44,495 nucleotides of DNA from an uncultured Desulfobulbaceae bacterium (GTDB lineage: Bacteria > Desulfobacterota > Desulfobulbia > Desulfobulbales > CALZHT01), in contig CALZHT010000014.1 in the NCBI GenBank assembly GCA_945787445.1, positions 1-44,495 of the forward strand, written 5' to 3'. Under the pieces are notes generated by a model. The model was not told the origin of the DNA, did no database searches, and saw nothing but the letters and a program-made list of their open reading frames with translations. Shown in pieces: positions 2,323 to 43,085 of the stretch (within the stretch, counting starts at the first letter, position 1; each line of letters opens with the position of its first letter). The translations under genes and the position numbers were made by a program.

Positions 2323-3710
2323 TCAGGATTGCTTCCAAAAGCCGTGAAAGCTGAGCGGGGTATGATGATCAAGTTGGATTCTGGCAACCGGTCCATTTGG
2401 TATGTCCTCTGCGTCCAGTATCGCCAGGGTGCTTATGCCGATTTCTTCATTGTGTACGATGCTCAACAGCCATCCGGCTTGCTCGTTTGCAGGGGTGTCC
2501 GGTTTTTTCACAAATACCGGTTCTTCGACCTTTTCAGATGCGGAGAAAGCAAACTCGGAAGTTTCACCGGTCTCCACATAAAGGCGAGCCAGAGTATTGT
2601 AAGGATATCCGATCAGTTTCCCCTGTGATTTGACGAGATAGCAATAGCGGTATTCGTGGCACCAGTGGTCGCGGTTTATAAAGGGGAATTCATAATTTCC
2701 CTCAAAAAGGATTTCTCCTTTCACTGTATTCCTGCCCGGGTCGATAACATAGCGCCGCACCTTGCCCGGATAAAGGAACTCTATTTCTCTCCCTTCCATT
2801 ACCGCCCAGGTCGCCGGATCGTTGCCGATGAAATGGTCCGGGTATTCGTACCCGACAAAATCCGCGATAATTTCGTTGTTGCGTTCAAAGGCATTGATAC
2901 TGTGCCACATCCAGCAACTGTCCGTTTCAAGCCGGACCGGCTCTTCATGAAAGCGTTGTCCCCTGTTGAAGACAAGCAATAGGTTGCCTTTTTCCGCCGC
3001 CCATTTGAAGCACTTGGCAAAACTTCGTAAACCCAGAAGGAAAGGCAGGGCGTGGACCTCACAAGGATGCATGTTCATGATAATGTGATGGGCGGTTACA
3101 AAATAGTCATGGATAAACAGATTTTGATCCAGCTTAATGCGGCGGTGGTTCACTACCGCATCTGTTGCGTCAAGCTCGGTCAGGTGTAGGAAAAATGTAG
3201 GGCTCGGTTCAATGCCGAAATGGATCCATTCGCCGGTCTTGCCGTCAATCTTGGGATGGGCATTGTAAAACCCATTTTCAATCCCCAAACGATCCTCGCC
3301 TATGGTTTGCAGGCTCTCCGGTTCGAGAAGAAAGGGGTAGGATGCGTCTTCCAAAGCATAGAGTTTTTCATTTCTATGGAATACACTCACGCTGGCTGCA
3401 GGCTTGAGTTTTATTCGCCCGATGTTTTTTATAATTCCACCCGGTGCCCGGCTTGTCCACGAGGGATACAAAGATCTTCCTGCTTTTTCTTCGTTAACAT
3501 ACCTTGGGGTTCTGACAAATCGTGTCCGATAGCGGACAGGCCATCACCATCGAGGAGACACTTTTTCCTGTAACCGGCCCGGTCGAAAAGTCCGGCACCG
3601 TTACGATACAGTGTTCCTTCCAGCCCTTGCGGGATTTTTCCTTCTATTGCAGGAAGATAATCCTTTTCCTGGGGCAGAGATTCCGCGTATCCGATTGTAG
3701 TGCTACTCAT
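2323..3710 (-). pseudogene. Carotenoid oxygenase family protein, disrupted by a frameshifting deletion
   Basis: Two adjacent reading frames together make one member of the RPE65/carotenoid cleavage dioxygenase family (non-haem Fe(II), cleaves C=C bonds of carotenoids or stilbenes). The upstream part (3710 down to about 3540) gives PQGLEGTLYRNGAGLFDRAG and the DGDG motif. The downstream part resumes in another frame at about 3533 as RYRTRFVRTPRYV, then YPSWTSRAPGG. Between DGDG and RFVRT only 17 nt remain where intact relatives have about 48, so roughly 31 nt are lost and the frame shifts. The four expected iron-ligand histidine regions are still present downstream: NAHPK, FIHDYF, MWHSIN and the terminal FHGFW. 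The coding sequence is otherwise well kept, so the lesion may be recent. No strong ribosome site precedes the ATG at 3710. An assembly error is unlikely for a loss of this size but possible. Confidence 0.75.
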
Positions 3711-19731: not shown

Positions 19732-19860
19732 GGATACTAAATAAAGTGCCTAAAGTGAGCTAAAGTGCGAAGTGCCTAAAGTTAAAGGATTTATTTGACA
19801 AGTTAGGTGCCATAACTTTAGCCACTTCGAACTTTAGGCACTTCGGTAAATAAGTATCAA
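19732..19860. repeat. Inverted repeat of iterated AAGTGCCTAAAGT units (copy 1)
   Basis: Just after the selB stop, the left arm holds AAGTGCCTAAAGTGAGCTA then AAGTGCGAAGTGCCTAAAGT. The right arm (19813-19845) holds the complementary ACTTTAGGCACTT and a GCCACTTCG variant. The arms can fold into a long imperfect hairpin. Nine-to-ten-base units beginning AAGTG recur within each arm. The same unit set occurs at about 42930-43085. Confidence 0.8.
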
Positions 19861-35600: not shown

Positions 35601-35729
35601 GTAAACGCTTACAGGGCACGGCATCTGCTTTGTCATCGGCCTGTTCACATACCGATGTATAGCGGACAGGCCTCTTTCAAGTTTATGCCCCCTTGCGGGG
35701 TACATCTGCCGCACCCTGTAATCGTTTAC
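35601..35729. repeat. 129-bp MITE-like palindromic element, copy A
   Basis: Its ends are terminal inverted repeats of about 22 nt with a few mismatches (GTAAACGCTTACAGGGC... and its partner ...ACCCTGTAATCGTTTAC). Inside are a second palindrome (GGCCTGTTCACATAC / GTATAGCGGACAGGCC, 35639-35672) and CCCC-TTGC-GGGG (35689-35700). It has the same length and near-identical core as copy B at 39511-39639. Its right 47 nt lie inside the PP-loop gene and encode that protein's last 14-15 residues and stop. Confidence 0.92.
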
Positions 35730-36462
35730 CTCTGGAAGCAGATCGGAATGGGTTGAGCAGATATTCCGGTCGTATATTTGCTAGACCTGCAAAAACGTTG
35801 GCCTTGATGCGGCTGTTTTTTTCAAAAAACGGCTCGAGTATGCCCCGAATTTCTTGTCGCTTTGTGTCACCTGATATGGGACAGGGGTTGGCGACAGGGG
35901 CGATTCCCAATGATTCTCCCTGTGCCTTTATCTGCGCTTTCTGGAGATAAGCAAGTGGCCTGATGATGGAAAGGCTTCCTGCAAACAACTCCTGCTTCGG
36001 CACCATGGTACTCATGTTGCCGCTATAAAAAAGATTGAGAAAAAACGTTTCAATAATGTCTTCCTGGTGGTGGCCAAAACCGATTTTGGAAAATCCTTTC
36101 TGCCGGGCAATTTCGAAAAGCCGGTTGCGGCGCATACGGGCGCAATGGTAACAACCACTTTTCCCATCTTCAGCAATAAGCGCTTCTTTGCCAATATGTG
36201 TTTTTTCGATTATGTAAGGCGCCTCAAGATACCGAAGCTGTTCTTCAACCAGAATGTATTCCTCCCCTCCGAATCCCATATCAAGATGGACTGCAAGCAG
36301 ATCATAATCAATGGGCGCTTTTTTCCGCCAGTGCTGCAGGAGCCATGTCAGGACCAGACTGTCAATGCCGCCTGACACAGCAACCAGGACACGGTCTCCG
36401 TTGGTCAGCATGTCATAATCATGCATGGCACGGCCAATAAGGTGGTTGATCTTTTTCTTCAT
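35683..36462 (-). CDS. TtcA-like PP-loop ATPase (tRNA thiolation type)
   Basis: This is a 259-residue PP-loop enzyme. Its motif AVSGGIDSL (S-G-G-x-D-S) adenylates a target base. The C-x-x-C in SGCYHCARMRR and the GFGHHQEDIIETFFLNLF segment are typical of the TtcA/TtuA class, which put sulfur on tRNA (2-thiocytidine-32 for TtcA). A late cysteine in VANPCPISGDTKRQ fits the Fe-S-binding version. I favour the ATG at 36462 (MKKKINHLIGRAMHDY), which aligns with TtcA; a further ATG lies 15 codons upstream, and neither has a clear ribosome site. The last residues RGKRLQGAADVPRKGA come from the 129-bp repeat that begins inside the gene. Confidence 0.85.
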   Translation of the reverse strand: MKKKINHLIGRAMHDYDMLTNGDRVLVAVSGGIDSLVLTWLLQHWRKKAPIDYDLLAVHLDMGFGGEEYILVEEQLRYLEAPYIIEKTHIGKEALIAEDGKSGCYHCARMRRNRLFEIARQKGFSKIGFGHHQEDIIETFFLNLFYSGNMSTMVPKQELFAGSLSIIRPLAYLQKAQIKAQGESLGIAPVANPCPISGDTKRQEIRGILEPFFEKNSRIKANVFAGLANIRPEYLLNPFRSASRGKRLQGAADVPRKGA

Positions 36463-36531
36463 GGAATTATAAAAAACCAATGGAGTAGAAAAGGTAATGG
36501 TCAGCATTGATTATTTTTGCAGAGAAAATAA

Positions 36532-37216: not shown

Positions 37217-37361
37217 TATACACAGCGCTATAAGTTCGATACATCCCATCATGCTTTGTCACTCACTGCGGTGCCTGCTCACAGCACTATCAGGATGCTC
37301 CGCCGGCTCCTCGCTCGTTCCTCGCCTGGCTGGGTGCCTCGAACTTATAGCGCCGTGTATA
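37217..37361. repeat. 145-bp element with 23-bp terminal inverted repeats
   Basis: The left end 37217-37239 and right end 37339-37361 are inverted copies with one mismatch (core GCGCTATAAGTTCGA). The inside is GC-rich and non-coding (TGCTTTGTCACTCACTGCGG... GCTCCTCGCTCGTTCCTCGCC). The right end abuts the hisB stop codon (37362-37364). It shares the motif TGCTTTGTCA with the 129-bp elements at a comparable distance from the end, hinting at a related family. Confidence 0.85.
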
Positions 37362-39510: not shown

Positions 39511-39639
39511 ATAAGCGATTACAGGGTGGCACATCTGCTTTGTCATCGGCCTGCCACATACCTGATGTATAGTGGACAGGCCTCTTTCAAGTTTATGCCC
39601 CCTTGCGGGGTACATCTGCACCACCCTGTAATCGCTTAT
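39511..39639. repeat. 129-bp MITE-like palindromic element, copy B
   Basis: The terminal inverted repeats are perfect over 19 nt (ATAAGCGATTACAGGGTGG and its complement). An internal palindrome (GGCCTGCCACATAC / GTATAGTGGACAGGCC) and CCCC-TTGC-GGGG match copy A at 35601-35729 position for position. Copies differ at compensating places in the stems, which suggests that the fold is kept. There is no coding capacity. Confidence 0.93.
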
Positions 39640-39702
39640 GAATACAAGTGGTTGCAGGTTTCAATATTGCCTGTTTGCTCGTCTTTTTGAATGGGGTAAG
39701 AG

Positions 39703-42929: not shown

Positions 42930-43085
42930 GCATAAAAGAAGTGCCTAAAGTTTGAAGTGCCTAAAGTGCCTAAAGTTATGGTACTTTTCTGATCAGACTA
43001 TTTTCAGTGCCCCCTTGAGGGGTATAAATTCTTTAACTTTAGGCACTTCAAACTTTAGTTCACTTTAGGCACTTTATTAGGCATC
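42930..43085. repeat. Inverted repeat of iterated AAGTGCCTAAAGT units (copy 2)
   Basis: A 23-bp perfect inverted pair joins 42945-42967 to 43036-43058, flanked by further units (AAGTGCCTAAAGT, AAGTGAACTAAAGT read from the right). The loop region contains TGCCCCC-TTGA-GGGGTA. The same unit set flanks the loop at 19732-19860, including AAAGTTATGG next to the loop in both copies. The gap between the aminotransferase gene and the small 62-aa gene contains nothing else. Confidence 0.85.

Follow-up and report, generated by a model that had tools for sequence, protein, structure and literature searches.

The window analyzed here, a stretch of 44,495 nucleotides from an uncultured Desulfobulbaceae bacterium (contig CALZHT010000014.1 of assembly GCA_945787445.1, positions 1 to 44,495), contains two 129-bp repeats, copies A and B, which belong to a family dispersed over its genome. 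We consider it probable that these repeats are miniature inverted-repeat transposable elements (MITEs) of the IS66 type (ISBst12-like) which carry a structured module, most likely RNA, that aids their spread. The mobility of the elements is of a known kind, whereas the structured module is apparently undescribed. An earlier note on this DNA had regarded the repeats as non-coding elements that spread by a transposase encoded elsewhere, and this view is supported by approximately 50 loci, by 8-bp target duplications and by a same-ended IS66 element in a relative.

Copies and Insertion Sites

Copies in the own genome, which was read as stretches around matches, were sought by BLAST, a terminal-repeat pattern and a covariance model (R1), together placing the family at approximately 50 loci. 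The pattern returns 54 matches as opposed to 7 for its reversed control, and the terminal 19-mer is found three times in the window (0.01 matches expected). The genome-wide count which the earlier note had proposed thus exceeds by far the two copies that it would have ascribed to a local duplication of flanking DNA. Such a duplication, to which the distance of only 4 kb between the copies might point, is refuted by their unrelated flanks and by the loci elsewhere in the genome, and we give it practically no credence. Within the family and order of the source organism, 31 of 38 genomes (the own genome being one of them) show matches, with up to 85 copies in relatives.

The base form of the element measures about 107 bp, and many copies bear an extension of about 50 bp that closes with a third terminal repeat; in two loci of the own genome (L012 and L018) the core is turned around with respect to the extension, which lies on the opposite side. 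Copies A and B represent a subfamily that is uncommon (five of the aligned copies belong to it) and whose internal loop holds an additional hairpin of 24 nt. Most copies of the own genome have the ends GTAAGCG...CGCTTAC, with A/T replacing the terminal G/C in copy B, and copies in G029, the genome of a relative, have terminal inverted repeats starting with GTAA (GTAACTATCC...GGATAGTTAC).

Flanking duplications of 8 bp (7 or 8 of 8 bases matching) are present at 23 of 29 copies in G029 as opposed to 2 of 812 control pairs. Moreover, a separate repeat of that genome is intact at several loci and interrupted twice by the element, at two different 8-mers (CCGATGGC and GGCGCGGG). In the own genome, the flanking 8-mers match at six or more bases in 6 of 10 extended copies compared to 2% in the control, and copy C41 (L002) shows an exact repeat of CCTGCAAT, offset by one base from the scripted boundary. 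The target duplications that the earlier note had suggested looking for are therefore found in both genomes, standing outside the terminal G/C of the element. A duplication of TA, as in IS630, ERIC or Correia-like elements, was the first guess from TAAG...CTTA ends and was rejected in view of the G...C ends and 8-bp duplications in G029.

Two further arrangements were observed. Mini-elements of 49 bp, consisting of terminal repeats and extension only, occur in L162 (710-758) and L163 (708-756), the latter with an exact 8-bp duplication. In G029, a tandem pair of elements (L133, 7923-8191) has the same 8-mer, CTGATTTT, between its members and on both flanks.

A Probable Mobilizing Transposase

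Three features together identify the mobilizer of the family as, very probably, a single-ORF (open reading frame) IS66-type transposase of the ISBst12 type: the ends GTAA...TTAC, the target duplications of 8 bp and the presence in a relative of a same-ended autonomous element. The autonomous element (L361 in genome G024) is an insertion sequence (IS) of 1,729 bp with the ends GTAACTATCCAGCTTGCGCT and GTAACTATCCAGCTCAAAAA and an exact 8-bp duplication, GAATATTT, that codes for a single IS66 transposase of 475 aa. A MITE of the same assembly (L192, the same element as L122 of G024) begins with GTAACTATCCAGCTTGCGCAC and has 19 terminal bases in common with it. A second IS66-type element in a relative, L372, exhibits GTAACTGTTCAGG ends, an exact 8-bp duplication and a further ORF. 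The latter (2689-3576, minus strand) lies upstream of the transposase ORF, which it overlaps, and matches DruA of the Druantia defense system (PF14236, E 1.4e-31). A precedent is the ISBst12-group element ISDge4, an IS66 member mobile in Deinococcus geothermalis: its end reads GTAACTGCTCAGCA, its single ORF encodes 449 aa and its repeat measures 8 bp (PMC12898284). Ends like GTAACTGTTCAGCA, seen in the MITEs, equal this end at 13 of 14 bases. The hairpin described below was not found in the IS66 loci. An IS66 remnant in G029 (L155) was considered as a full partner, as its end fits, and discarded since the element is broken.

A Structured Hairpin Module

Between the ends lies a hairpin of 106 nt composed of an outer stem, tandem G.A, the internal loops CAGAUGCGCGAAA / UGACAAAGCAGAUG (GCGAA/GACAAA) and an apical hairpin. 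The structure was set by hand from single-sequence folds, as RNAalifold on a first MAFFT alignment misplaced the hairpin. Across 24 diverse sequences, two-sided changes are seen in 36 of 43 pairs; covariation cells number 203, whereas shuffles give 58 and sliding the structure gives no more than 53. Not only the outer stem but also the inner and apical stems covary. Searches at relaxed thresholds gave no Rfam match for copies of the own genome or of other genomes, and a literature search returned no mention of the core in this context; as subscription papers were mostly absent from it, an earlier description is possible. The hairpin is thus an apparently undescribed structured module, probably RNA. 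A kink-turn, considered from the sequence, was dropped as its second helix is off consensus.

Recurrence Across Phyla and Transposon Ends

An exact scan of GTDB contigs with the pattern GATGCGCGAAAN{28,50}TGACAAAGCAGAT, in which the core letters are identical by construction and the stems are not, returned at least 117 stretches, mostly from Desulfobulbaceae and Deltaproteobacteria metagenome-assembled genomes, as well as from Marinobacterium, Neptuniibacter, Endozoicomonas, Oscillospiraceae and Phascolarctobacterium. The hairpin constitutes dispersed repeats in Gammaproteobacteria, Clostridia, Negativicutes and other Desulfobacterota, where the common core lies within differing outer stems and hairpins (apical hairpin usually 39 to 41 nt). 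A cross-phylum covariance model (R2) counts 49 and 46 copies in two Oscillospiraceae, 17 in Phascolarctobacterium, 132 in the Deltaproteobacteria genome GH18 and 82 in UBA2273. At E 1e-5, R2 matches only 1 of 148 genomes in the class of the Oscillospiraceae, 3 of 274 in that of Endozoicomonas and 14 of 148 in the own phylum, figures that indicate a patchy distribution and few false matches. The exact core has no match in viral contigs, nor do the Endozoicomonas and Marinobacterium elements in plasmids.

The elements that contain the hairpin differ in their ends. In Desulfobulbales, the IS66-type repeats form the end of the outer stem itself, while in GH18 the hairpin is flanked by AGTTCCCATCCC repeats, and several copies are bordered, as judged by eye, by repeats of about 4 bp. 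It lies between AGGGCCTGTTGACG repeats in Endozoicomonas and between GGGAACCTG repeats in Marinobacterium, in both cases with a second hairpin, and follows a similar left end in Neptuniibacter, CCTAAATTGAGCG in G323 and CCCGGATTATGC in G220/G256. The predicted fold therefore constitutes a module that recurs across phyla irrespective of the ends of the transposon. The second hairpin lies downstream of the first (Endozoicomonas L329-L333; Marinobacterium L219, 3429-3692), and the two genera share a motif in it around CAACCAG..CCTG.AAT.

Small ribozymes likewise combine invariant loops in arbitrary stems with a patchy distribution in mobile elements. The invariant internal loops and the patchy presence in mobile elements of distant phyla would suit a self-cleaving ribozyme carried by MITEs, a proposal we regard as quite improbable given the very long outer stem, the near-fixed hairpin length and the lack of an Rfam match.

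Selection on One Strand

In the outer stem of 130 exact-core copies, the sense strand contains 341 G.U as opposed to 23 A.C pairs, most of the excess falling in three columns (including a tandem U.G/G.U) and some remaining without them. The Oscillospiraceae alone show 62 G.U and 9 A.C pairs, whereas the bias is small in GH18 alone (38 and 24). As G.U pairs far outnumber A.C pairs on one strand, selection acts on the fold of that strand, for which RNA fits best. The level of this selection is addressed by 13 orthologous pairs from two Oscillospiraceae with flanks 87-96% identical, where 29 pair changes keep and 24 break the pairing. Paralogues compared to their consensus have 256 kept and 40 broken changes (Fisher p 6e-7 vs. 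orthologues), although shared ancestry inflates the paralogue counts and makes the contrast indicative only. Orthologues thus lose pairing more than paralogues, which suggests that the fold is maintained through the copies that spread and decays after insertion. In 20 Oscillospiraceae copies (L335-L354), TATAAT-like hexamers within 10 nt upstream of the hairpin give 9 hits against a background of about 1 per 5-nt bin, a hint at an own promoter in a region that is AT-rich.

These data bear on two further explanations. In an ordinary palindromic IS66 MITE, the arms would match owing to the need of the transposase for equal ends and to homogenization of palindromes during replication, and the core would have no function. 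The ends, the 8-bp duplications and the autonomous partner indeed account fully for the mobility, and copies decay in place. Homogenization, in contrast, yields perfect matches rather than G.U pairs of one strand, and neither the covariation of the inner and apical stems nor the same-letter internal loops in unrelated elements of other phyla are expected from it, so that we regard this explanation as unlikely.

Alternatively, a single-stranded DNA hairpin could be recognized by a Y1/HUH transposase in the manner of REPIN/RAYT systems, at least in lineages such as the Oscillospiraceae, around whose copies no obvious duplication is seen by eye; a one-strand fold with a bulge and dispersed palindromic units are features of this kind. 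Yet the Desulfobulbales copies have 8-bp duplications, Oscillospiraceae HAN072 (G039) contains 46 copies and no Y1 match, and only two distinct hairpins lie near 30 Y1 loci, both in copy-filled genomes and without consistent linkage, which makes this reading highly improbable. Of the mobilizers named in the earlier note, a DDE element or a RAYT/Y1 type, the former is retained as an IS66-family transposase while the latter is abandoned.

The Two Copies in Their Window

Both copies are 129 nt long, as the earlier note had stated, with 16 differing columns in an alignment of 130. Eight of the outer 27 pairs differ; seven of these are paired in both copies, four through changes on both sides, so that the matching two-arm changes between near-identical copies are confirmed. 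The description of the terminal repeats as perfect or compensated holds for the arms of copy B and for these seven pairs, but not for pair 8 of copy A, the sole unpaired exception, which leaves the arms of A imperfect. Folding z scores of the two strands are -7.9 and -10.0 for copy B and -6.3 and -8.4 for copy A, the minus strand being strongest, and no shuffled sequence reaches native stability in either copy. Together with the covariation, this folding beyond shuffles supports the proposed selection on the folded form. Minus-strand sense, the extra-hairpin subfamily, the cross-phylum module independent of ends and the selection on one strand go beyond the earlier note. The features are listed in Table 1.

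Table 1. Positions of copies A and B and of the parts of copy B in the window.
Feature	Position	Strand	Remarks
Copy A	35601..35729	minus	129-bp element of the same subfamily as copy B; overlaps the 3' end of ORF 35683-36507 (TtcA-like)
Copy B	39511..39639	minus (sense)	129-bp element; exact 19-bp inverted ends; strand from G.U/A.C bias and folding z
Copy B, outer-stem arm with terminal repeat ATAAGCGATTACAGGGTGGCA	39511..39531	none	ends compared with other copies
Copy B, conserved core strand UGACAAAGCAGAUG of internal loop	39532..39545	minus	plus strand reads CATCTGCTTTGTCA
Copy B, apical hairpin	39546..39584	minus	39 nt
Copy B, opposite core strand (CAGATG...GAAA)	39585..39619	minus	split by the 24-nt extra hairpin, which base-form copies lack
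Copy B, 24-nt extra hairpin	39589-39612		minus strand reads TACCCCGCAAGGGGGCATAAACTT
Copy B, second outer-stem arm with terminal repeat	39620..39639	none	
Degraded remnant of the ~50-bp extension, GAATACAAGTGGTTGCAGGTTTC	39640..39670	none	by eye against copy C41 (L002): GAATAAAGTGGTTGCAGGTTGC

Copy A covers the last codons of the TtcA-like ORF and precedes an ORF for a damage-control phosphatase by 15 bp, all on the minus strand. Copy B is located between the plus-strand genes rpsI and argC (named from their translations) and is thus antisense to its neighbors. A structured non-coding RNA or RNA control element serving the host at each insertion site would be in keeping with the strong fold, the conserved loops, the sense orientation of copy A between two minus-strand genes and the promoter-like boxes in Oscillospiraceae. 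We regard it as very improbable, as changes in orthologous copies are near-neutral, copy B is antisense and presence is patchy.

The 24-nt extra hairpin (39589-39612 and 35679-35702) resembles a separate dispersed repeat of the genome, AAGTTTATGCCCCCTTGCGGGGT (C28, C56, C68, C70 and others), which is sometimes paired at a distance of about 58 bp. Another palindromic repeat-like unit lies at 37217-37361, just downstream of a HisB-like ORF (upstream in plus coordinates), and has 30-nt arms, 87% complementary and 85 nt apart. Finally, long inverted copies 23 kb apart at 19733-19844 and 42938-43085 (62 nt at 89% and 30 nt at 93%) contain repeated AAGTGCCTAAAGTT motifs and are possibly IS ends.

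Proposed Mechanism and Implications

In the explanation we favor, that of IS66-type MITEs with a structured module, an IS66-type DDE transposase acting in trans would recognize the GTAA-ended terminal repeats and insert the element, generating the 8-bp target duplication. The 106-nt hairpin between the ends would function as one folded strand (most likely RNA from the sense strand, minus in the window) and provide a specific signal for protein binding or processing, favoring the spread of those copies which retain it, each copy decaying once inserted. We infer RNA rather than single-stranded DNA, and the most likely role of the hairpin would be that of an RNA signal aiding spread.

Several observations weigh against this explanation. 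No target duplication is visible at copies A and B. An autonomous same-ended element, which the earlier note had proposed to seek, is present in relatives (L361, L372) but was not found in the own genome, whose one intact IS66 has different inner ends, and no IS66 gene was found in several copy-rich relatives; in the own genome and in those relatives, IS66 is therefore an inferred mobilizer. The concentration of the G.U excess in three columns, the small bias in GH18 and the inflated paralogue counts belong here as well, as does the promoter-like signal, which is weak and confined to Oscillospiraceae.

More tentatively, and with slightly less than an even chance in our estimation, the hairpin may represent a new class of mobile structured RNA spanning several phyla, which resides on unrelated transposon ends and promotes its own spread by binding a conserved protein or by self-processing, as a bacterial counterpart of the structured RNAs of parasites resembling short interspersed nuclear elements (SINEs). 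MITEs are usually regarded as shrunken IS copies that carry nothing of their own. In the present case, elements of Desulfobacterota, Gammaproteobacteria, Clostridia and Negativicutes with at least four kinds of ends have retained one fold and its conserved internal loops, whereas individual copies seem to decay after insertion. If confirmed, this would indicate an RNA (or strand-specific) function which is common to non-autonomous elements regardless of their transposase and is open to direct testing in laboratory strains.

Comparison With Known Systems

MITEs are commonly explained as an IS that has lost its interior by deletion. The present elements differ in that their interior is a conserved module common to elements with different ends. 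With the ISBst12 group (ISDge4) they share GTAA-type ends, a close terminal repeat, the 8-bp duplication and, in the autonomous partner, a single-ORF IS66 transposase, whereas they themselves are without an ORF and carry a hairpin that was not detected in the autonomous IS. ERIC, RUP and Correia/NEMIS elements are palindromic dispersed repeats of 100-160 bp with short and long forms and a TA duplication; size, palindromic character, dispersal and the two forms are similar here, whereas the duplication is 8 bp and the sequence is different. REPIN/RAYT systems also have dispersed hairpin units and a one-strand fold, from which the present elements are set apart by their 8-bp duplications, the absence of a Y1 gene in one copy-rich genome and another architecture. 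The 100-nt MITEPsy1 of Pseudomonas syringae is a short non-coding bacterial MITE with inverted ends, a target duplication and mobilization in trans (PMC3189936), and in all of these respects the elements described here resemble it.
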